Source: Bombella apis
GTDB taxonomy: Bacteria > Pseudomonadota > Alphaproteobacteria > Acetobacterales > Acetobacteraceae
Length of the DNA stretch: 64,000 nucleotides
Reading direction: 5' to 3'
Assembly (NCBI RefSeq): GCF_018221685.1
Contig: NZ_JAGJTM010000004.1
Span: forward strand, 248,001 to 312,000
How positions within the stretch are numbered: the first letter of the stretch is position 1; the number at the start of each line of letters is the position of its first letter. Shown in pieces: positions 4,294 through 27,050 of the stretch. The notes under the pieces were generated by a model that was given only the letters and a program-made list of their open reading frames with translations, was not told the DNA's origin and did not search any database. The translations under genes and the position numbers were made by a program.

Positions 4294-5516
4294 GTCACCA
4301 CCTGCACGCTGATCGTGTCCGCCGTCACCGTGGGAAGCTGGTTGATCGGCAGTGTGAGCCTGTTCTGGCCCGCATTGCCATCAGTGCCGATGGACAGGGT
4401 GAGCACCTCTGCCCAGTCCCCCAGCCCGTCCACCACGGCAGAAAGGCGGGAGGCATAGACGGTTCTGCCCAGCCGGATGCGGTTGGCCCCCGTCGTCAGG
4501 TAGGAGACGATGGCCTGCTGGATGAGCTGTGCCGCATTGGATGGCACGGCATCCGAGGCCGCAATCTCCATGACCACATGGAGAGCAACCGGCGTTGGCC
4601 TGTCATAGCGGAATGAGTAGGACGGCTGGTTGCCCGCATAAACAGGGTTTGTGTCCTGCACCGTGACGATCTGGGTACCAACGGTGGGGATGCCCGGGGG
4701 CTTCTTGTGCAGGATGGCCTGGCCGATGTCCTGCGGGTTGCCTCCTTCGACAAGGATGTACTGCGCCCCCGCCGGGATGGTCACGCCCTGCTGCACTGTC
4801 GGAGCCTGTGCCGGATTGTCCGTCACATAAGCATCCGTCACGCCGGGCAGCTCCAGCAGTGCCCCCATGAGGGAAGCATTCTGCCCGATGCTGTTGGCCG
4901 CCACGCTGGCCTGCCGCCGGGCCTCGAAGTCGGTGCGGCTTTCGGCATCAGCGCCCGTGGCGCCGGGGGCAGGATTGGTGAGGGACGCCAGCCCCAGCCC
5001 CGCCTGATAGAGCGTCAGGCTGCTGGCGGGGCAGGTGATGGCCCCGGCGGTCTGGCAGGAGAGGTCGATGCTGGCCGTGGCGGACTGGGGAAGCGTGATG
5101 ACCTGCGGAGCCACATAGAGGCTGCCATCCGTTCCCTGCGCCACGACCGTACCGGCAGCGATGGTCTGGCCGGGGGCGTTCACGCTGGCCTGCACCGTGA
5201 CGGTCGTTGCCGTGGCGGGGCGGCGTTCGATGAAGTAGATGCGCCCGATGGCCTCCTGCATCCGCCCGGAAGAAGAGGCCGGGTCCACGCCATTGAAGAT
5301 GGCGATCATCGCCCCCAGAAAGTCGCCAAGGATGGCGGTCTCGGAAAGGGCGATCTGCCCCTGCGGGGTGGAAAGGGCCGTGTTGGCCCCACCGCCCAGG
5401 GCGGCGTTCATGTCGGCCAGAACCCCGGCAAGGATGTCCTGCTCGGAAGGGGCGGTGAAGCCCGCATCGGTGAGGATGGGGGCCGGGACGTTGGTCGTGG
5501 CGTCAGAACTGGGCAT
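4290..5516 (-). CDS. Baseplate J-like protein
   Basis: A gpJ/gp47-type wedge protein of 408 residues. Early in the protein is a D-I-L-A-G-V-L-A-D-M-N segment followed by an S-x-P-x-G-Q helix, then beta-domains with A-x-G-T-V-x-x-x-G-x-D-G. The R-T-D-x-E-A-R-R-Q-A-S-x-A block (near residue 200) and the G-V-T-D-A-Y-V block are family hallmarks. I chose the ATG at 5516 because GGAG lies 8 nt upstream; the ATG at 5531 lacks a good ribosome site. It overlaps gp25 by 14 bp. It assembles the baseplate wedge with gp25 and the DUF2612 protein. Confidence 0.9.
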   Translation of the reverse strand: MPSSDATTNVPAPILTDAGFTAPSEQDILAGVLADMNAALGGGANTALSTPQGQIALSETAILGDFLGAMIAIFNGVDPASSSGRMQEAIGRIYFIERRPATATTVTVQASVNAPGQTIAAGTVVAQGTDGSLYVAPQVITLPQSATASIDLSCQTAGAITCPASSLTLYQAGLGLASLTNPAPGATGADAESRTDFEARRQASVAANSIGQNASLMGALLELPGVTDAYVTDNPAQAPTVQQGVTIPAGAQYILVEGGNPQDIGQAILHKKPPGIPTVGTQIVTVQDTNPVYAGNQPSYSFRYDRPTPVALHVVMEIAASDAVPSNAAQLIQQAIVSYLTTGANRIRLGRTVYASRLSAVVDGLGDWAEVLTLSIGTDGNAGQNRLTLPINQLPTVTADTISVQVVT

Positions 5517-5853
5517 GGTCCGTGCTCCCATCGCTGAAGGTTACGAGAATGACGCCGGTGAGCTGGCGTTCCCTGGTGGGATTGGCGAGGTGGCAGGTGG
5601 CCGCCGCCACGCCGGGAACAGACGTGGCGGCATCCTCGATCTCCGAGGCATAGAAGGAGAGGTCCACGTCCGAGCGGAGGATGTCCGTGTCGTAGGGGAT
5701 GCCCTGCCCGGTGTCGTAGAGCACCTCGCCCAGCCATGTGCGGGCGGCTGAGCATACGTCCTGAAGGATGGCCGCCTTGTCCGTCAGCACGACCAGATTG
5801 CCCGTGCTGTCCAGTGTCAGGTCCCAGTCAGGGGTGAGGGAGAGGGTTTTCAT
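5503..5853 (-). CDS. Baseplate wedge protein gp25/gpW-like
   Basis: A 116-residue protein with the gp25/W lysozyme-like fold pattern. It has an N-terminal L-T-P-D-W-D-L-x-L-D-x-x-G-N-L strand pair, a central W-L-G-E-V-L-Y-D-T-x-x-G-I-P-Y segment, and a C-terminal T-G-V-I-L-V-T-F-S-D-G strand. GGAG 6 nt before the ATG at 5853 fixes the start; a TTG 15 bp upstream is less likely. The next upstream structural gene is the spike at 10574, so a 4.7-kb cargo block separates two genes normally close together. A terminator lies 17 bp before the start codon. Confidence 0.85.
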   Translation of the reverse strand: MKTLSLTPDWDLTLDSTGNLVVLTDKAAILQDVCSAARTWLGEVLYDTGQGIPYDTDILRSDVDLSFYASEIEDAATSVPGVAAATCHLANPTRERQLTGVILVTFSDGSTDHAQF

Positions 5854-5869
5854 GAGAACTCCGGGCAAT

Positions 5870-5897: not shown

Positions 5898-5931
5898 GGA
5901 TGATCTCCAGTGAAGACTGGGCCTGTTGGTA

Positions 5932-8010
5932 TCAAAAGTTGTTGATCCCCAGTTTTTCAAAGAATGGCTTGTTGCGCATTTTCGCATCATCAAGTAGACG
6001 GTCCCATTCGATGAGTTCAATGGAGCCTTTGTAACTGTCACCAGGGGCCAGCCAGCGTCCTTTCTTGGGGTTGGGGAACCAACCATCTGTCCATTCCTCA
6101 AGCTTTCCTAAACGGTCGGCGATGATGAAGCAGTCAAAGATGCAATTTTCACTTATTTCTACAGGCCGACCATTTGGGCCTTTGACTTTCTGGCCAGCTA
6201 GGGAGCGTCGGTAGTTTATGATCTGCTGTACAGGACTGTCCTCAGATGTATAGATTTCCCGGCCCGGCCTTTTGAACTCCACAATCATGATGCGGTTCGG
6301 AGTTTTCGGATCATCCATGAATCCCATGACCTGATCGAAGACAATCAGATCGGGCCGTTTTTTGCTGTTGCTACCCTGCACGATGTCTTTCTGAGGGACA
6401 TCCGAAGACAGGAACTGTGTGAAGGTCAGCCGCTCATCAATCACCCAGAGATCATGAGAGAAAAAGGCAGGTTTTGGTCCTATGGATGTTTCTCGCATCG
6501 GGCAAAGAAGGGAGTGGAGAATTTCTTCCTTGGCGTAGTCGGCATCACGGCCTGTCTGGTGTCTGGTCACATAGGTCAGACTCTCTTCCATCAGGTTGAG
6601 GAGGGCCTTTCTGCGTGTGACATATTCGCACAGGCTGTTCCTGTCTGCTTTGCTTTCCTGCGCGCGTATGGCCGAAATTCTTTCCGACAGATCGGAAACA
6701 GGGCCATCGCACCGCATATCTGCGATGACCTTTTTTAGTTCTTTTGAGCGGTTCTTGTCACGAATGAAGCGCCTGCGGGAAAACTCTCCATAAACATGAT
6801 TGGGGTCATCGTAGCCGTATCCCTGTTCTGCAAGAATTTTCAGCATTTGGTCGATGCTGCCTTCCAGCACGGAAGGGTACATGTTCACGACATCTTTGAT
6901 AGCGTCCCTCTGTTTCTTTCTCAGGTCAGCCAAGGGGACTTGTAGAAACGTGGTAAGAGGCTCGTGGAACATCTCTACAATATCTTTACCCTGCAGTTTA
7001 GCTGCGTCTCCAGTAAAGTCTGTCCGCTCCTGATTTACATTCCTGTCAAGAATAGGAGAGGTGAGGATGGCCCGGAACTTCACTCTTTTTCCGTCAGTTC
7101 TATGGTAGGCATTTTTAATGCCCATGACGGTGTCGATATCTTCCTGCTTTACGATGCGGTCATTGCCCGCAAGGTAGATGAGGTTATTGCGCTTCCCTGA
7201 TGATGGAACATTTTCTGCCAAGCATTCCATCATCAGCAGGGTGTAGGGTTGTCCATTCACCTCTGTAGTAACTTTTTCTTTCCTGACGATGCTGTTCTGT
7301 ACCTTTTCGGAAAGGTCGGTGTTCTGGCCGTCAATTTCCAGTATGAGGCGGCCCATTTCTTTATTGAGAAGATAGGGGAAGAATTGGCTGCAGATGATAT
7401 CCTCCACAGCTTTTCGATTAAGTTGCTTTTGGGCTGGTTTACTTGCCTTTGTTAGCGGAATTTTCTCGGCATATTCAGGTAATATGCCGCTGAATGAGAT
7501 TTTCGTTTCTGTTTCGTCAAAGAGACGGTCAAGGGGCTCTTCTATAAAGTCCGTAATCGGTTCACTTTCTCCCAGCCCGAACTTGAACGAACGCTTCGAA
7601 AAGGTGATGCTTTTTCCTTCGGCGGTGTTGTCTACTTCGTATGTGCTTTCAATGGCTGTTTTTTTAAAGGCAGCCAGCCACAGTAAGCGACCAACACCTT
7701 TCCGGCCTTTCCCGACGCCATGTAGGGTATCGACCATGCAGAATGCGTCAAAATTTTCCTCTGTCATGCCAGTACCGTTGTCGGTTACTGAGCAGGAAAA
7801 TCTTTTGTCGGCCCCTGACATTTTTACTGTGATACGCCCCTTTTTCTCTGTTTTTTCCTTAAATAGCTCTTCTATGGAAATGAAGGAGTTACTTATGGCC
7901 TCGAGCACGGGCAAGAGGGCGGTGTGGCCGTTATGGGGCGCAGGTAAACGCCGGACACGGGCAGCAAGGTTGAAGCTCATTGCCTTGTTCTGTTGTGTCT
8001 GTGCCTTCAT
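5932..8010 (-). CDS. GHKL ATPase with C-terminal PD-(D/E)XK nuclease domain, candidate phage-defence cargo
   Basis: A 692-residue protein. The N-terminal GHKL (HSP90/MutL/MORC-like) ATPase shows the N-box E37-A-I-S-N41, D77-N-G-T-G-M82 and a glycine-rich lid (G98 to R108). The middle (about 200-540) is a long, mostly helical region with many charged residues. Near the C-terminus R-P-D554-L, then V-E578-F-K580-R-P and Q595 match the D...E-x-K core of PD-(D/E)XK nucleases. ATP-driven clamping plus DNA cleavage is the expected activity; such fusions are common in defence islands. The gene is AT-richer than its neighbours, has a GGGGA ribosome site and its own terminator, and interrupts the baseplate genes, all pointing to recently acquired cargo. 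No closer family can be named by eye. Confidence 0.75.
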   Translation of the reverse strand: MKAQTQQNKAMSFNLAARVRRLPAPHNGHTALLPVLEAISNSFISIEELFKEKTEKKGRITVKMSGADKRFSCSVTDNGTGMTEENFDAFCMVDTLHGVGKGRKGVGRLLWLAAFKKTAIESTYEVDNTAEGKSITFSKRSFKFGLGESEPITDFIEEPLDRLFDETETKISFSGILPEYAEKIPLTKASKPAQKQLNRKAVEDIICSQFFPYLLNKEMGRLILEIDGQNTDLSEKVQNSIVRKEKVTTEVNGQPYTLLMMECLAENVPSSGKRNNLIYLAGNDRIVKQEDIDTVMGIKNAYHRTDGKRVKFRAILTSPILDRNVNQERTDFTGDAAKLQGKDIVEMFHEPLTTFLQVPLADLRKKQRDAIKDVVNMYPSVLEGSIDQMLKILAEQGYGYDDPNHVYGEFSRRRFIRDKNRSKELKKVIADMRCDGPVSDLSERISAIRAQESKADRNSLCEYVTRRKALLNLMEESLTYVTRHQTGRDADYAKEEILHSLLCPMRETSIGPKPAFFSHDLWVIDERLTFTQFLSSDVPQKDIVQGSNSKKRPDLIVFDQVMGFMDDPKTPNRIMIVEFKRPGREIYTSEDSPVQQIINYRRSLAGQKVKGPNGRPVEISENCIFDCFIIADRLGKLEEWTDGWFPNPKKGRWLAPGDSYKGSIELIEWDRLLDDAKMRNKPFFEKLGINNF

Positions 8011-8111
8011 ACCATGTCCCCGCTTAAGTAGTGCGAAAGTTATGACATGAAGGTCGTTGTTTGTGAATGGGAGGGAAGGGGGGGGTGCATTTCTGCACAG
8101 GCCCCCAGTGT

Positions 8112-8140
8112 CGGGCCATCCCCGCTAGGGCGGGGAACAC
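8112..8140 (-). CRISPR. Solitary type I-E-like CRISPR repeat (no array)
   Basis: Read on the minus strand, these 29 nt begin GTGTTCCCCGC, continue CCTA, and end GCGGGGATGGCCCG. Length, the CCCCGC/GCGGGG stem and the GTGTT start match type I-E repeats; against the E. coli repeat as I recall it, 24 of 29 positions agree. No second copy occurs within several hundred bases on either side. Immediately 3' lies a hairpin with stem GTGCA/TGCAC and a GAAA tetraloop, extended by outer G5/C5 pairing. The element is in the sense of, and about 100 bp upstream of, the ATPase-nuclease gene. The 340-bp gap 8011-8350 holds nothing else I recognise beyond promoters that must drive the divergent genes. Confidence 0.65.
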
Positions 8141-8350
8141 CCAATGCTCATGCCTGCATGGGAGACAATCGCCGCAAGAGTGTTTTTGTTTGATTTGGCG
8201 TCACCCATGATTGAAGTACTTTTTCAGTCAGAGGTTGGGGAGGTTGTGCGGGTTGTAGACACATGGGGGTCACCTGTGCCGAAACGATCCTCCTTCTGAT
8301 CCAGCAGGTATTGGAGGCAGAAAAAGAGGAGTAGTTACGTGGAGGAGATC

Positions 8351-8509
8351 ATGAAGAAATTAGGCGTTGCTTTTGTTCTGGCTTCTGGGCTTTTGGGATA
8401 CTCTCTTTCGGCGAGAGCTGAGGAGAATGAGGATCAGGTCAACCAGTTGATGCAATCCATGACGGCTCAAGACTTCCTGAAAGTTCTGGACCAGTTCTAC
8501 GGGAAGTAA
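8351..8509 (+). CDS. Small exported protein (52 aa)
   Basis: The ATG follows a strong GGAGGAG site (8341-8347). The 52-residue product has a clear signal peptide: MKK start, hydrophobic core to about residue 18, and A-R-A-E cleavage motif at 22-24. The mature part is about 29 residues, acidic then helical (E-N-E-D-Q-V-N-Q-L start, F-L-K-V-L-D-Q-F-Y-G-K end). Function unknown. It is the first of five plus-strand cargo genes inside the prophage and is transcribed divergently from the ATPase-nuclease gene. Confidence 0.65.
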   Translation: MKKLGVAFVLASGLLGYSLSARAEENEDQVNQLMQSMTAQDFLKVLDQFYGK

Positions 8510-8519
8510 AGAGGTAAGG

Positions 8520-8545
8520 GGGAGGAAGCAAAAAATTCCTCCTTT
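8520..8545 (+). terminator. Possible weak terminator after the 52-aa gene
   Basis: GGAGGAA pairs with TTCCTCC across an A-rich 8-nt loop and is followed only by TTT. The stem is good but the T-tract is short, so termination may be partial. The following 8546-8790 stretch shows no convincing gene. Confidence 0.35.
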
Positions 8546-8790
8546 ACTGCCGACACGCCATATTTCATCTGTTGCCTGGATGAACTGGTCCAGCCCGTTG
8601 TGCGGCTCTCTTTTTCTTTTTTGGAAAAACCGATCGCCACAGGTTTGTGGTAGAAGCAGGCTCTTCCACAGGTCCGTTGAGTGTGGTTTTCATATGTGGC
8701 CCTGATGGATCAGGATGTGGTTGTCAGAGTCGGTGGCTGCACCCGGTAGGGTGGGTGCCGTCAATTTCAGGAATGAACAGGATTATGGGC

Positions 8791-9126
8791 ATGAAACATC
8801 TGGTGCTGTGCGCCGTGTTCGCACTGGCTCTGCCCGGTGTGGCACGGGCGGAGGCTGTGTATCTGAAAAATGAGGATGGGTCTTTCGCCATAGACCCTCC
8901 AAAACTGTACGAATTTCTTCACAAGGCTTATTCCAGCAAGCGGGTGGCGGATAATGCCTATGATGTGCTCATCAACAAACGGCGGGGCAATTGCTACGAT
9001 GCTGTTGTCCATGTGCTTAGATATTTTGATGATGGGCCAGGAAATGTGCCGAAATATTGTTACAGGCCGGATCTGGCCAGTGATGATGCCGTTACGGACG
9101 AGCCGCAGGGCCTGAGAGCGCCCTGA
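8791..9126 (+). CDS. Exported two-cysteine protein of unknown function
   Basis: A 111-residue protein with a signal peptide (M-K-H-L-V-L start, hydrophobic core, A-R-A-E-A cleavage at about 20). The mature part has a helical start (Y-E-F-L-H-K-A-Y) and two cysteines, one in R-G-N-C-Y-D and one in K-Y-C-Y-R-P, which could form a disulfide. The acidic tail is probably disordered. I placed the start at 8791, AGGA 9 nt upstream; ATGs at 8773 and 8785 are possible. Spacing of a helix, cysteines and C-Y-R-P loosely recalls Rap1a/Tai-type periplasmic immunity proteins, but this is weak. Its signal peptide resembles that of the gene at 9249. Confidence 0.65.
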   Translation: MKHLVLCAVFALALPGVARAEAVYLKNEDGSFAIDPPKLYEFLHKAYSSKRVADNAYDVLINKRRGNCYDAVVHVLRYFDDGPGNVPKYCYRPDLASDDAVTDEPQGLRAP

Positions 9127-9248
9127 AAGCAACACCCGGCCAGAAAATTGTCTGATTGCCAGCGCATGGGGTGAAACCACATTGGAGAGGTTGTCGGGAT
9201 GCGCTATTTTCTCCGTAGCCTATGGGGCGTAATGCAGGAATCCTGTCC

Positions 9249-9617
9249 ATGAAACACGTTCTTTTTGTAATTGCAGCCGTTTCTGTCTGGGGCGGAGTAG
9301 CCCGTGCGGATGCATTGAGTCACATGCCCGAAACCAGAGGCACCCTCTCTCAGGCGCTGCATAGTGCCAAGGTGCAGGCGCATCAGGGGGTGAATCATCA
9401 GGAGCAGCGGACGGATGAGGAGAATTTGCGCCGCATCGGCCTTTCCGCCGAGACGGTGAGGGATGGTCTCTGGGCCGTATCACACCGCCCCCATTCGCCC
9501 TGTGCCCAGTATATCCGTCAGCTGACAGCCGATGCAAAGGGCAGTTCGGCGGCCCTGTTGCAGAGTGACCAGCGGCTTGTCACTTACGTCGAGAATTCTG
9601 GAATCTGCGAACGCTAA
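9249..9617 (+). CDS. Exported two-cysteine protein of unknown function, paralogue-like neighbour
   Basis: A 122-residue protein. It has a signal peptide (M-K-H-V-L-F, cleavage after A-R-A near residue 20) very like that of the gene at 8791. The mature part is mostly helical and charged, with cysteines in S-P-C-A-Q-Y and at the very end in S-G-I-C-E-R, suggesting an oxidised periplasmic protein. AGGA lies 9 nt before the ATG. It sits 122 bp after the previous exported gene, same strand. No family recognised. Confidence 0.65.
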   Translation: MKHVLFVIAAVSVWGGVARADALSHMPETRGTLSQALHSAKVQAHQGVNHQEQRTDEENLRRIGLSAETVRDGLWAVSHRPHSPCAQYIRQLTADAKGSSAALLQSDQRLVTYVENSGICER

Positions 9618-9765
9618 CCGGCTGGAGCAGTGGTTTCTCTGCAAGGCAGTCGTGCAGTGATAGAGGGGCCGTGCGCTTGATCGACCGTTCCTGATGGTTC
9701 AGTGCTGGGCTGCGCCCTTCTGGAAAAGAGGGCGTCCGATAGTGAATGACTGGAAAGGGAGTATC

Positions 9766-9921
9766 ATGTCCGAGAAGGAAGAACCGGCTGCAAACCCTGT
9801 GAAGGCAGTACATGACGTGATCAGGAACATGCCAGCTGAGGAACGTGAAAAGGCTCATGAGCGCCATCATGAAGTGCTCGATGAAGTCTCCAGTGATGAA
9901 TCCGAAACTGTAACTGACTGA
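9766..9921 (+). CDS. Small acidic cytoplasmic protein (51 aa)
   Basis: The ATG at 9766 follows an AAAGGGAG ribosome site. The product is 51 residues, very rich in Glu/Asp/His/Lys, without signal peptide or membrane segment. It is probably one long helix (residues 10-40) with an acidic tail. It is the only non-exported member of the plus-strand cargo set. Small acidic phage proteins of this kind include DNA mimics and anti-defence inhibitors, but nothing specific supports that here beyond the CRISPR-repeat-like element nearby. Confidence 0.55.
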   Translation: MSEKEEPAANPVKAVHDVIRNMPAEEREKAHERHHEVLDEVSSDESETVTD

Positions 9922-9931
9922 AATCTGTTAC

Positions 9932-9971
9932 GGGCGGGGGCAGGCGGGCCTGTTCCGTCCTGCCCCCGCCC
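9932..9971 (+). terminator. Perfect 13-bp hairpin between cargo genes
   Basis: GGGCGGGGGCAGG (9932-9944) pairs perfectly with CCTGCCCCCGCCC (9959-9971) around a 14-nt loop. It follows the 51-aa gene stop by 10 nt. No T-tract follows, so it may be a 3'-end stabiliser or a Rho-assisted stop. Confidence 0.45.
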
Positions 9972-9996
9972 CTGTATCGTGAGGGAAAGGAAAGTG

Positions 9997-10569
9997 ATGA
10001 TGCGGACGACACTGTGCATGACAGGCCTGAGTCTGATGCTGCTGGCGGGCAGTCTGACAGATGCCCGGGCCCAGACCCCGCTGGATGTGGCGCAGGATGG
10101 AACGGTGACAACAAGCGGTCTGGCCGCTCTTGGTGTATCTCCCAATGGGGGGCAGCGCTTGGGGCAGACCGGTAAATGGCAGATGCTGGAGCTGGACCAC
10201 ACGCTTACGGCTCTTCTGGCAGAAAATGATGTCATGTTGTCCGCATCGCCACGTCGGGGTGGTGATGTCTTTCTCATGTTCGTCCTGAAGAATCATGAGA
10301 TTCACCAGCCAGAACTGGAGGTCCGTTTCTCCAACGGATACGAGGTGAAAGGCTTCCATTATACAGGCATCATCAACCGGGGCACGCAATGGGGATGTTA
10401 TGTCTCCGAAGCTGAGGGGCACGCCCTGTTTGATGCCCTGGCAGGCAGTACGTCTGTCAGCATGTCCTGGGCAGGGGGCGCAGCCCACATCGATTTCGAT
10501 CACGGGGATGAGTTCGTCCGCACACTGGCCGAGACAGCCTGGCGTGGAAATATGCCGTTTCCGAAATGA
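9997..10569 (+). CDS. Exported protein of unknown function (190 aa)
   Basis: The ATG at 9997 (AGGAAAG upstream) gives a signal peptide with a hydrophobic stretch M-T-G-L-S-L-M-L-L-A-G and A-R-A-Q cleavage near residue 25. The mature 165 residues are a mixed alpha/beta domain with one cysteine (W-G-C-Y-V) and repeated beta-strand-like stretches. Secretion implies a periplasmic or surface role. It ends 4 bp from the stop of the convergent spike gene, so its transcript opposes the late operon. No family recognised. Confidence 0.6.
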   Translation: MMRTTLCMTGLSLMLLAGSLTDARAQTPLDVAQDGTVTTSGLAALGVSPNGGQRLGQTGKWQMLELDHTLTALLAENDVMLSASPRRGGDVFLMFVLKNHEIHQPELEVRFSNGYEVKGFHYTGIINRGTQWGCYVSEAEGHALFDALAGSTSVSMSWAGGAAHIDFDHGDEFVRTLAETAWRGNMPFPK

Positions 10570-10573
10570 TATT

Positions 10574-11227
10574 TCATTGAGGGGGAGCGCTTGTGCCCGG
10601 ACCGGTCTGCACGCCGCCGTGAGTATGCTGTTTTAGCGAGATGCCACCCGCCTGAACGTCGCCGGATGTGATAATATCGCAGGTGGCTTCAATGCGGCTG
10701 GCTTTCAGGGTGAGGGGCCCTTGTGCGTCTATGGTGACGGATCCCGGCGTCACGATCCGCCAGCCCTGATCCGTTGCCTGTATGAACTGGTCTGGCCCTT
10801 CATTGAGGAAGCCGCCCACATATACGCAGTCCTGCATGGAGAACTGTCGGAACGAGGCCGGAGGTGAGGGCTGTCGGGTCGTGATGGCATGGGTGTGGTC
10901 CCGCCCTGATATGATGATGAAGCCAATATCCCCCGGCTTGGGGTCGATGATGAAGGCGGAACGGCCGCCTTGCAAACGCAGGTAAGGAACATTGTGGATG
11001 AGGTCATGTGGCAGGGTGCGGGAGAGCGCATCCTGCTGCTGTACCATGGGACGGACCGTGACCTTGCCTGTAATGGCAGTGGCCTCGGTCGTGACTGTTT
11101 CTACCTGTACCAGCATGGAAGGGCCGATCTGGTTGATGTGGCTGGCAATGAGTGAATCCAGTGCACCTTTCAGGCTGTTTTTGCCCGCATTGGAGCGCAG
11201 GAGATAGGGCGTGGCTGTAGCTGGCAT
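10574..11227 (-). CDS. Baseplate spike, Gp138/gpV-like membrane-puncturing protein
   Basis: A 217-residue protein. It has an N-terminal helix-rich region, an OB-fold-like domain (about 40-130, with V-R-P-M-V-Q-Q and P-Y-L-R-L-Q-G-G), and a beta-helical C-terminus ending Q-H-T-H-G-G-V-Q-T-G-P-G. The H-T-H motif near the end is the iron-binding tip of central spike proteins of contractile tails. AGGA 8 nt before the ATG supports the start. It lies beside the hub gene as expected; its usual downstream partner gp25 is displaced 4.7 kb by the cargo island. Confidence 0.85.
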   Translation of the reverse strand: MPATATPYLLRSNAGKNSLKGALDSLIASHINQIGPSMLVQVETVTTEATAITGKVTVRPMVQQQDALSRTLPHDLIHNVPYLRLQGGRSAFIIDPKPGDIGFIIISGRDHTHAITTRQPSPPASFRQFSMQDCVYVGGFLNEGPDQFIQATDQGWRIVTPGSVTIDAQGPLTLKASRIEATCDIITSGDVQAGGISLKQHTHGGVQTGPGTSAPPQ

Positions 11228-11281: not shown

Positions 11282-12301
11282 TCATCGTCTGCCAAGGGTC
11301 GTACGGATGCATTCCATATGTGTATGCCAGGATCCATGTGAGGTCTCGGTACTGATGTCGTGCCAGACAAAGGTGGCCAGCCACAGGCCGTTCCAAGGTG
11401 GGGTGCTGGTTGTGCATGTTCCGGTGACGGGTGCAAAGGTGCTTTCCAGAGCCAGTGGATGCCAGAAGGTGATGTCTGGCCGGAGGAGGGTTGTCAGGGA
11501 TATGCCGGAACTGCTGTATCGGGGATAGCCGATCATCCCCGTTGCGGCTGAGATGACAGGAACTGTTGATTCCTGCCCTGCTGGCGGGATGCCGGTAAAG
11601 GTCGGCCCCCATATTTCAAGGAGCCCCCTGTAGGGAATGGCCCCCTGGTTGCTTTCCATCACGGGGATGAAAGGTGAGAGGTTGAAGGTGCCTTTCGTCG
11701 CCGTCAGGATGGCCTGTATCTGCTCAAGAGCCGTTCCCCATCTGTAATGGTTTGTCAGGCTGGCATGGTGTTCCCACCCACCATGATCCAGCAGCTGGAA
11801 GCCTGCTTCTTTGCAGATATCCGCCATCAGGGTGATGACGTCCTGCGGTCCGGCATAGCCTTTGGCCTGTGGCAGGATGGACGCTGGAATGGTGCTGGTC
11901 ATGGCATGGATATGGAAGGGACTGTCCAGATCATCATAATCCGTCTGGGCACTGTCGACTGTTCCAGTGAACAGGTTTGTCAGCGGGCTCCCTTCATCAC
12001 CGGCCTGTAAGGTGATGAAAGTCTGGCCAGCAGTGATTGTGTTTAGGTTGTCTGGTGCAGGATGGTCGGGAAGGATGGAAAGGCTGTCTCTGTCTATCTG
12101 GGAGAGCCCCCTGATGGTGAGGTCAGCTTCGGAACCGGTGGTGAATCCCGCATGTCTTATGGTGGCCTGTATTGCATGTCCCTTGCCAATCGTGAAGCTG
12201 TCCAGGCCTCCGTTCAGCCCGGGTATGAAGAATGTGACGGTTATCTGTTTGCGGGCAAAGCTGTGTGTCGTGGTGGCATTGGGATATGTGATGGCTGTCA
12301 T
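11282..12301 (-). CDS. Baseplate hub protein (gpD/gp44-like)
   Basis: A 339-residue protein between the small baseplate gene and the spike, the usual place of the hub. It carries a beta-rich first domain (residues 15-125, with an L-F-T-G-T-V-D-S-A segment typical of hub proteins) and a central helical part beginning D-V-I-T-L-M-A-D-I-C-K-E-A-G. The start overlaps the upstream gene by 4 bp. Family assignment rests on gene order plus these patterns. Confidence 0.7.
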   Translation of the reverse strand: MTAITYPNATTTHSFARKQITVTFFIPGLNGGLDSFTIGKGHAIQATIRHAGFTTGSEADLTIRGLSQIDRDSLSILPDHPAPDNLNTITAGQTFITLQAGDEGSPLTNLFTGTVDSAQTDYDDLDSPFHIHAMTSTIPASILPQAKGYAGPQDVITLMADICKEAGFQLLDHGGWEHHASLTNHYRWGTALEQIQAILTATKGTFNLSPFIPVMESNQGAIPYRGLLEIWGPTFTGIPPAGQESTVPVISAATGMIGYPRYSSSGISLTTLLRPDITFWHPLALESTFAPVTGTCTTSTPPWNGLWLATFVWHDISTETSHGSWHTHMECIRTTLGRR

Positions 12302-22979: not shown

Positions 22980-24209
22980 TCAGGTAGGTGGTGCAAACCG
23001 TGAGAAATCCGGCAGAGGGGACTGGTTGGTGATGAGGCCATCCAGAGCGTAACGCAGGGCGTCGATGTAATGGTTGTTCGCATCTTCCACCTGCGGGAGG
23101 ACATCGCCTGTCAGCGGGTCCGACCTGTAACGGTAGAGGCGGAATTCACGGACTGTCTGCTGGCAGCGGGGATGGATGCGGATGGACCGGAAGGAGCGCA
23201 GCCTCTCGATGCCATCCTGTACGCTTCCGGGCCATTTTCGGGCAGCACTGATGCGGAAATGATGGCGGGTGCGAAGGTAACTGATCGTTTCCGGCCGGGC
23301 ACCGTCTGCCCGGATGGGCCAGTGGCGGATGCCCGGTATCCTGTCGAACAGGGCAGGCAGGTGGTCCAGTGGAATGTGGGTGCCGCCTGCCTCATGGTCG
23401 ATATGGAGGATGTCCTCGTGAATGAAGCAGCGTATGACGGCTGTGGGGTCCCGTGAGAAGCCCCAGTCCACTCCAAAATGGAAGCGGCAGCTGCTGGGAG
23501 GCCGGAACTCTTCAACCGTGATGCGGTCGGGGAAGATGAGGGCTTCGTGATGCAGCTGATAGCCTCCCTCCCAGATATGGCCATAGTCCTGTGGTCGCAG
23601 ATGTTGATCCCGTTTTCGTTCCTGGTCCAGAATATTTGGGAACCACGGATTGTCTGACCAGTTCGCCCGGATCGTGATGAAGGAGGGGTCACCTTCCGTG
23701 GCAGGATCACGCATGAAGGCATCCACAGGGTCGGAGGGATGATTGGGATTCCAGCTGAACCAGAGTTCGGAACCGGGCTGGCGGATGGTCGGGCGCAGGA
23801 GTTTCAGGGACCTGGCCGAGAGGGACTGCGCTTCCTCTACCCAGGCGATGTTCATTCCTTCCAGGGATTTTATGGTTTCGGCATTGTGGGACTGCATCCC
23901 CTGGAAGCGGATGACACCGCCGCCGGGTGTACGGATTTCCCTGTCCAAAACTGTGAAGAGGTGGGACAGGTTCAGGCGTGCGATGGTGTCCCGGAGCAGC
24001 TGGTGAACGGAAACAGTCAGGGATTTCTGGATTTCCCGGATGCAGACCGCCCGCAACCCGGGGCGCAGTGTGGCCTGTTCGATCAGCATTCCGGCAAAGA
24101 AACAGGACTTCCCGGAACCTCGTCCTCCCCAGATGCCTTTATAGCGGGCAGGCTGTAGAAGGGGCGCAAAGGCCCGGGGTGTCATGATGGTGACCCGGTC
24201 TGTTGTCAT
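22980..24209 (-). CDS. terL: Terminase large subunit
   Basis: A 409-residue packaging ATPase-nuclease. Walker A is G28-G-R-G-S-G-K-S35. Walker B is I-A-W-V-E-E-A (121-127). Coupling residues follow in F-S-W-N-P (151-155). The RNase H-like nuclease shows G-V-D248-W-G and the late acidic D-A-N-N-H-Y-I-D-A. All motifs are intact, so packaging should be functional. The PBSX/P22-like class is suggested by length and motif order. Confidence 0.93.
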   Translation of the reverse strand: MTTDRVTIMTPRAFAPLLQPARYKGIWGGRGSGKSCFFAGMLIEQATLRPGLRAVCIREIQKSLTVSVHQLLRDTIARLNLSHLFTVLDREIRTPGGGVIRFQGMQSHNAETIKSLEGMNIAWVEEAQSLSARSLKLLRPTIRQPGSELWFSWNPNHPSDPVDAFMRDPATEGDPSFITIRANWSDNPWFPNILDQERKRDQHLRPQDYGHIWEGGYQLHHEALIFPDRITVEEFRPPSSCRFHFGVDWGFSRDPTAVIRCFIHEDILHIDHEAGGTHIPLDHLPALFDRIPGIRHWPIRADGARPETISYLRTRHHFRISAARKWPGSVQDGIERLRSFRSIRIHPRCQQTVREFRLYRYRSDPLTGDVLPQVEDANNHYIDALRYALDGLITNQSPLPDFSRFAPPT

Positions 24210-26268: not shown

Positions 26269-27033
26269 ATGTCTATTGAATCGTTGTTGTCGCATCTGGA
26301 TTCCCTTCTGGCGGCCCAGGGATTGTCCGACAGGCGGGCCTGTCTGAAAGCCCGTGAGATCAATCCTGCTGTTGGTGTGGATTTTTTGCGGGACATGCGT
26401 CGGCGCAAACATCTCCCCCGTACGGACAAACTGGCAGCCCTGGCCCAGGTGCTGGGTGTGCCGGTTGGTCCGCTGGTAGCAGAGATCAGCAGGTCTGAAG
26501 AGCAGAAGACAGTCGAACAGCCAGCGCCGTCTCCTAATCTGCCTGTTTCGCAGGTGCAGGTCTGTGGTGAGGTGCAGGCCGGGGTCTGGAAGGAGGCACA
26601 TGAATGGCCTCTTCCAGACCAGTATGCGATCACCATTCCTTACGATGCAGCCTATCCCGGTCTGAAGCGATACGGGTTGATGGTGAAGGGGCAGTCCATG
26701 AACCGTGTGTTTCAGGATGGTTCGGTGGTTATCGTCATCAATTTTTCCGAGCTGGGACGCCGGCCCCGTAATGGGGATTATGTGGTCGCCATGCAACGTT
26801 CCAGAGTGTCGGATGGTTTCGAGGCCACCATAAAGGCGGTTCAGGTCAAGGAAAGCGGACAGATGGTTCTCTGGCCCCAGAGTACCGAGCCGGAGTTTCA
26901 GTCACCGATCATCCTGCCTGCACCGGGTGATACGGTCTGCCACAGCGCTGCTGAGAGCCCGGATGTAACCATCCTTGCGCTGGTTGTCGGCAGTTATGTG
27001 CCGATGCCAACGGCATCTTTTCAGGGATCGTGA
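26269..27033 (+). CDS. S24 (CI/LexA-like) self-cleaving repressor
   Basis: A 254-residue protein. The N-terminal helix-turn-helix (about 5-70) is XRE-like. The linker is Pro-rich (P-A-P-S-P-N). The S24 domain has a candidate autocleavage bond A104-G105 (Q-A-G-V-W), catalytic S143 (G-Q-S-M) and K189 (T-I-K-A). RecA-stimulated self-cleavage would relieve repression on DNA damage. The N-terminal domain differs from LexA, so it is more like a phage CI. The start was chosen at the first codon of the DNA-binding domain. dinB follows 17 bp after its stop, an SOS-like pairing. Confidence 0.8.
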   Translation: MSIESLLSHLDSLLAAQGLSDRRACLKAREINPAVGVDFLRDMRRRKHLPRTDKLAALAQVLGVPVGPLVAEISRSEEQKTVEQPAPSPNLPVSQVQVCGEVQAGVWKEAHEWPLPDQYAITIPYDAAYPGLKRYGLMVKGQSMNRVFQDGSVVIVINFSELGRRPRNGDYVVAMQRSRVSDGFEATIKAVQVKESGQMVLWPQSTEPEFQSPIILPAPGDTVCHSAAESPDVTILALVVGSYVPMPTASFQGS

Positions 27034-27050
27034 GAGGGGCTGAGGCAGGC

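Follow-up and report, generated by a model that had tools for sequence, protein, structure and literature searches.

A solitary type I-E CRISPR repeat in a Bombella apis prophage: a candidate RNA anti-CRISPR related to cas-less phage arrays

The 64-kb stretch of Bombella apis DNA analysed here as a whole (the window) carries at positions 8112-8140 a full 29-nt type I-E CRISPR repeat, which on the minus strand, from 8140 to 8112, has the sequence GTGTTCCCCGCCCTAGCGGGGATGGCCCG. As a solitary repeat unit it falls into the class to which the RNA anti-CRISPRs (Racr) belong, and it is best read as the zero-spacer form in a series of arrays that are carried, without cas genes, by Bombella phages. That it descends from those arrays and works as an RNA anti-CRISPR is the reading favoured here, tentatively and at slightly less than even chances. 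The phage arrays, which share a leader-like sequence, are a stronger find than the window element, and the preliminary description of this DNA had missed them.

The repeat, the hairpin behind it and the prophage pocket

At up to three mismatches the repeat has a single match in the window (itself) and none in 100 shuffles, its predicted stem is perfectly paired, and it is intergenic, inside a prophage and away from cas genes (C4:256112 in the coordinates of its own genome; Table 1). No second or decayed repeat was found by ungapped comparison within 150 nt on either side: the best upstream match (15/29) was equalled in 83 of 500 shuffles and the best downstream match (13/29) in 385 of 500, and a real one-spacer array, taken as positive control, gave 21/29. 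Two would-be decayed repeats were thus rejected, both with a flank match no better than shuffles: one downstream, and a 13-nt candidate upstream (8180-8168), 9 nt of which lie past a recombination junction in DNA shared with sister prophages.

The hairpin that follows in sense orientation is formed by GUGCA-GAAA-UGCAC plus an outer GGGGG/CCCCC stem. For the 71 nt that span both elements (8145-8075), the predicted structure has two hairpins and an energy of -40.9 kcal/mol, where shuffles give -27.6 (z = -3.9); a 61-nt version is predicted to fold differently between the hairpins, with the repeat stem and the GAAA hairpin retained. Another phage locus, L100, has the 24-nt core of this hairpin without a mismatch, in a terminator-like hairpin that follows one of its small genes. 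The 40 nt 3' of the repeat reach -17.2 kcal/mol, a value matched by 2.4% of random 40-mers in the window, whereas in viral contigs 19 distinct lone I-E repeats reach -12.2 at best, and as a group these 19 have 3' sides no more structured than random places. That sample was drawn by searching two repeat endings, GAACCG and GATGGCCCG; it covers 80 of 87 and 12 of 12 stretches from two lists, and four lone repeats at contig ends were dropped. The idea that GATGGCCCG is a general mark of phage repeats was discarded, as 18 of the 19 end in GAACCG. A scan confined to sigma-70-like promoters returned none in 7800-8700, where shuffles would lead one to expect just 0.4, and an Rfam search gave nothing useful.

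Table 1. Positions of the features in the window and of the related units in other Bombella genomes.
Feature	Position	Strand	Remarks
Solitary type I-E CRISPR repeat	8112..8140	(-)	7-bp stem UCCCCGC/GCGGGGA, handle AUGGCCCG
GC-rich hairpin, GAAA loop	8078..8106	(-)	begins 5 nt downstream of the repeat
Cargo cassette (ATPase/nuclease-like gene, repeat, hairpin)	5903..8171		two sister prophages compared
692-aa protein	5932..8010	(-)	N-terminal GHKL-type ATPase domain, Pfam matches just below cut-off
Gene remnant, last 63 bp	8272..8334	(+)	complete in G007 beside a lone repeat; ribbon-helix-helix regulator by eye
Short ORF, signal-peptide-like start	8351..8509	(+)	shortened relative to its G007 counterpart
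Baseplate wedge protein, gp25/gpW-like	5503..5868	(-)	left border of the cargo pocket
gpV-like baseplate spike, Apex motif	10574..11227	(-)	right border of the cargo pocket
G004:C21 (L087/L088) array	12628		one spacer
G004:C21 array	23687-24081		six spacers
G004:C21 array	26535-27050		seven spacers, eight counting the degenerate last repeat
G004:C21 lone repeat	37155		zero spacers, with terminator-like hairpin
G003 one-spacer unit	L086 8582-8671

The preliminary description thus stands in what it said of the element itself (a lone I-E-like 29-nt repeat with a GAAA-loop hairpin directly 3' of it) and also in placing it among prophage cargo, given the baseplate genes on both sides. Its nuclease and exported-protein neighbours are likewise recovered, the former as weak GHKL-ATPase matches with a nuclease assigned by eye and the latter as signal-peptide-like starts, also by eye. 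The limits of the cargo were set by two sister viral contigs, which from 8172 to the end of the query at 12000 share 98.9% and 98.4% identity with the window and are divergent beyond the 8171/8172 junction; the left edge lies at about 5902. Since the identity of the sisters stops there and both prophages carry other cargo, without the repeat, 5903-8171 is a swapped cassette, and the repeat sits 31 nt from its edge, a recombination junction.

The 692-aa protein of the cassette, whose C-terminus looks nuclease-like by eye (EFKRP motif), is encoded on the same strand as the repeat, with 101 nt between the repeat and its start codon. It has no PADLOC match, and nothing useful came from searching the PDB sequences or the viral contigs with the ATPase, NCBIfam with the cargo genes, or phage and plasmid collections with the cassette DNA. 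Its C-terminus does match an unnamed phage family (phrog_6203), and distant relatives of the protein occur in 5 of 149 other Acetobacteraceae genomes and in one phage; it is possibly a defence gene not described before.

The wedge protein that borders the pocket was matched in all 11 Bombella genomes compared (one per species), partially in G010, where the contig ends, and with one internal stop in G008. Because G007 has two loci, these genomes provide 12 loci, and the pocket holds a lone repeat in four of them (the window, G007 contigs 27 and 26, and G010), always on the tail-gene strand; it holds none in 10 viral-contig loci, several of which are probably the same prophages as the genus loci. 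Weaker matches, with five to six mismatches and no intact stem, were not counted as lone repeats; these include one in L118/L126, one in L128 and one in L121, in each case inside the pocket. The copy on G007 contig 27 is at the corresponding place, with related genes alongside (196 bp at 80% identity), and is identical to the window repeat at 26 of 29 positions; it has lost one stem pair, the standard fold is not predicted in its flanks, and a different ORF lies 243 nt downstream. At 80% identity some six differences would be expected instead of the three seen; the shortfall is, by estimate, not significant, and so the comparison is no proof of selection on the repeat.

As for the rest of the pocket, in the window (8272-10569), L044, L113 and L124 it contains small genes that run divergently from the tail genes and whose products begin like signal peptides; a ribbon-helix-helix-like regulator adjoins them in some of the loci (labels by eye). 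L114 and L115 (9322-9949) have there, beside the wedge gene, a second gpV-like spike gene that is about 65% identical.

The host type I-E system and the cas-less arrays of Bombella phages

The host has the complete machinery with which such a repeat could interact. An operon of cas3, cse1, cse2, cas7, cas5, cas6e, cas1 and cas2e (C4:17657-26192) lies about 230 kb from the window repeat, and all eight scanned Cas proteins match the expected NCBIfam models above the curated cut-off, Cas3 through its two domain models only and Cse1 (495 aa) in a scan of its last 296 residues. The I-E consensus occurs at 30 places in this genome at up to three mismatches (reversed control, 0), namely the window repeat, 27 repeats of one array, one repeat beside cas2, with two decayed copies alongside, and one in a two-repeat remnant at C2:13063. 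The array, on another contig (C1:74747-76361), counts 27 spacers, which with 27 matched repeats implies one additional, less perfect repeat.

Comparing the window repeat with those of the same genome and of relatives, as the preliminary description had proposed, places it closer to phages than to its host: it is identical at 27 of 29 positions to the phage-array repeats of a Bombella relative (G004) and at 26 of 29 to those of G003, and at only 23-24 of 29 to the host's own repeats. An origin from a phage array is therefore likelier than the capture of a repeat from the host array.

The phage arrays are seen best in G004, on contig 21 (45.9 kb), the first 38 kb of which hold integrase-, terminase-, portal- and tail-like ORFs (a reading of the translations). 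That contig has four cas-less I-E loci, ranging from a multi-spacer array to a single repeat (Table 1), and one-spacer units also occur in G003 and in the viral contig L075. A leader-like sequence, GGAAAYAGGACYARA-YRGAARAGT, is common to the four spacer-bearing units of G003 and G004; it was found at 5 places in 3 of the 11 genomes (controls, 0) and by eye is unlike that of the host. A trailer, which contains a terminator-like hairpin, was found at 6 places in 4 of the 11 genomes (controls, 0), including a second lone repeat of the host genome (C4:805421), in what looks like another prophage. That repeat (L149 3436-3464) lies 21 nt past a stop codon, fused to its terminator-like hairpin in a phage-like region; the same arrangement was observed in G010 (L132 9709), 6 nt behind an antirepressor-like gene.

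Further along the series, L089 and L100 show the leader with just one, broken, repeat behind it, and L095 has the trailer with half a repeat. Of nine units without spacers, these three are decayed and six keep the stem (those of the window, L124, L132, L149, G004:C21:37155 and, with one broken pair, L044). The window repeat has neither the shared phage leader nor the trailer, the phage leader has no match in its own genome at up to three mismatches, and no host leader was seen in front of it by eye. Since Bombella, a genus of cultivable bee symbionts, presents forms that run from arrays down to single repeats, the question of how RNA anti-CRISPRs originate can be tested there.

What do the phage arrays target? 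Five of the 14 spacers of the G004 phage arrays match other phage loci compared at 25/32 or better, the best site being preceded by AAG or ATG in four cases and by AAA in one; the other nine have no such match in those loci. The targets include antirepressor-like genes and a homologue of the small gene adjoining the second array (both by eye), and one of the 14 also matches its own phage's copy (26/32, behind AGT). For the G003 spacer, matches lie in an antirepressor-like gene (KilA-N by eye) of three viral contigs (L142-L144); the site is preceded by AAG in L143 and L144 and by CGG in L142 (by eye). The palindromic look of this spacer was dropped as a design feature, since it matches a gene in other phages. 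Among the host spacers, 3 of 27 match phage loci compared at 25/32 or better.

None of 679 distinct spacers, taken from the loci compared and in part from outside the genus, matches the window, which makes it less likely that an anti-CRISPR is strongly needed there at present. Against the same spacers, 13 of 23 other phage loci have one to eight matches and 10 have none; reversed spacers gave 2 matches over the 24 loci (for the window, 0 real and 1 reversed in the first run). Self-targeting was considered as a sign of an active inhibitor and set aside, as the host's 27 spacers yielded only two matches, both short and weak (E 0.5 and 0.9). The prophage type of the window has matches in all 11 Bombella genomes, and the window, unlike other Bombella phages, is hit by none of the 679 spacers; perhaps this is a domesticated or otherwise tolerated prophage.

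Anti-CRISPR RNA, relic or other roles

Under the favoured reading, the repeat would derive from the cas-less arrays of Bombella phages and would now travel with a cargo cassette in a resident prophage. It would be transcribed on the strand of the tail operon, for which, given a P2-type gene order, read-through from the tail genes on that same strand is a possible source. The host Cas6e would then bind and cut the repeat hairpin, and the resulting short structured RNA, a mimic of the repeat, would tie up Cas6e and Cas7e in dead-end complexes, lowering the type I-E activity of the host while the prophage is active. In favour of an anti-CRISPR are the perfect stem, the complete I-E operon of the host and the solitary, intergenic position in a prophage cargo pocket; against it, both sister prophages lack the repeat, as do 8 of the 12 genus loci and all 10 viral-contig loci. 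No anti-CRISPR protein gene was recognised among the annotated neighbours of the repeat. A broader and rather unlikely proposal would have Bombella phages use both ends of the series, their arrays turning the host Cascade on rivals and the zero-spacer descendants jamming that same Cascade. If true, anti-CRISPR RNAs would arise from collapsed phage arrays, with the intermediate stages visible in one small genus.

Almost as likely as an anti-CRISPR is an inert relic, i.e., a phage array that, through deletion or recombination, lost its leader, its spacers and its end repeat, leaving one functionless repeat to be carried in a swapped cassette. What brings the relic nearly level is that the sister prophages do without the repeat, that it has no recognised promoter, that the leader is gone and that other single repeats are decaying. 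Phage arrays are indeed found at many stages (seven to eight, six, one and zero spacers, plus the decayed singles of L089, L100 and L095), and the window copy, which has lost the shared leader and trailer, lies next to a recombination junction and near a truncated gene; nor has it, at three differences from its G007 counterpart, plainly been conserved better than the DNA nearby, which is 80% identical. Decay alone, however, sits less well with a stem that is perfect while the immediate flanks fail to align with those of G007, and with the majority of zero-spacer units that keep theirs.

Could the repeat instead serve the genes around it? As an element of the mRNA leader of the ATPase/nuclease gene, or of the tail-operon mRNA, the repeat and its hairpin might tune expression, through their structure or through cutting by Cas6e, and so let the cassette sense the host CRISPR system. 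It has the right strand and stands shortly upstream of the start codon, and other zero-spacer units lie just past stop codons (those of L132 and L149 directly before the terminator-like hairpin), so that repeat hairpins may well end up in transcripts; in G007 contig 27, though, both the distance and the downstream gene differ, and we regard this role as improbable. A landing pad, on which a single repeat is kept for seeding phage-borne spacers through the host Cas1-Cas2 or recombination, would fit the existence of multi-spacer phage arrays in the genus, but with the phage leader unmatched in this genome and no host leader seen at the repeat it is very improbable.

The least probable role, to which we give hardly any weight, is that of a CreA-like guide, in which a crRNA-like RNA from the repeat would direct Cascade to a nearby promoter. 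A repeat with a complete 3' handle does lie upstream of a gene, but a second repeat is absent, the cas operon is remote, and the 32 nt after the handle fold at -15.4 kcal/mol, being more structured than all 43 real spacers compared (mean -5.5, best -12.6), which makes a usable guide unlikely. These 32 nt were also rejected as a spacer, both for folding tighter than any real one and for resembling the terminator region of L100 (27/32, by eye) with neither an AAG nor an ATG PAM. Moreover, a scan of about 120 kb (6%) of the own genome (the window, L148, L010, L009, L011 and L149; PAMs AAG, ATG, AGG, GAG and TAG) gave no full seed match (1-5/7-11) with a PAM, and the 10 partial matches are within the range of ten shuffled guides (2-20).

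Comparison with known systems

Viral sequences are reported to contain 2,103 solitary repeat units, some of which are RNA anti-CRISPRs, and prophage units in hosts with cas operons match the subtype of the host in 82.9% of cases (PMC10651486). In the part of that report drawn on here, inhibition of CRISPR is described for nine tested candidates, including two of type I-E, and a position just downstream of a predicted promoter is typical of these units and not required. SRUFinder, the tool used there, sets a minimum of 90% both for the identity to a known CRISPR repeat and for the share of that repeat covered; the window repeat reaches this level with the phage-array repeats of G004 (27/29) and falls short of it with those of the host (23-24/29). 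It also has no full or partial repeat within 100 bp (ungapped comparison of 150-nt flanks), it is intergenic in a viral genome away from cas genes, and the CRISPR-Cas system of its host is likewise of subtype I-E. With RacrIE1 and RacrIE2 (PMC10651486) it has in common the single repeat of the host subtype, the intergenic prophage location off the cas genes and the intact Cas6-type hairpin; it differs from them in having no recognised promoter or nearby acr gene, in that its inhibition is a prediction, and in the strong hairpin that follows it, which exceeds those of the 19 other lone repeats from viral contigs. In the library searched, no paper on Bombella mentions anti-CRISPRs, and the window element would extend the list of candidate RNA anti-CRISPRs to this genus of bee symbionts.

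CreTA, the other comparison drawn in the preliminary description, fares worse. A genuine solitary I-E repeat in prophage cargo, in a host with a complete I-E operon and I-E arrays, is supported and fits the profile of the solitary repeat units among which RNA anti-CRISPRs were found (PMC10651486). The suggestion of a CreTA-type guide is not supported, given the single repeat, the highly stable hairpin after the handle and the lack of a full seed match in the 120 kb scanned. An ectopic CRISPR-like repeat and possible processing by Cas6 are what the two have in common; most CreA genes, as far as PMC8501985 is drawn on here, have two pseudo-repeats, and in the two studied CreA nucleotides 1-5 and 7-11 pair to a site with a PAM, whereas the window has one repeat, no guide seed match found and a distant cas operon.

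Type I-E repeats off the cas genes are already described from this genus in the form of chromosomal orphan arrays (PMC12282179), but these are multi-spacer arrays, with 30.9 spacers on average; for Aristophania vespae, the same work gives four orphan arrays of 3-6 spacers. Its main text contains neither 'single repeat' nor 'anti-CRISPR', and the portion drawn on here mentions neither prophage-borne arrays nor solitary repeats. A parallel to the phage arrays is found in the virus-borne mini-CRISPR arrays of SPV1 and SPV2 (PMC6858448), since the Bombella phages, too, bear arrays that lack cas genes and have spacers matching related phages. The window lone repeat belongs to the same repeat family as the Bombella phage arrays, yet it has no spacer, second repeat or leader, and it is the relatives G003 and G004 that have the features of mini-arrays, namely a leader, two or more repeats and a spacer directed at a related virus. 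Their spacer targeting is the pattern described for virus-borne mini-arrays in that work, and, unlike the phage mini-arrays cited there as leaderless, the Bombella arrays share a leader-like sequence.
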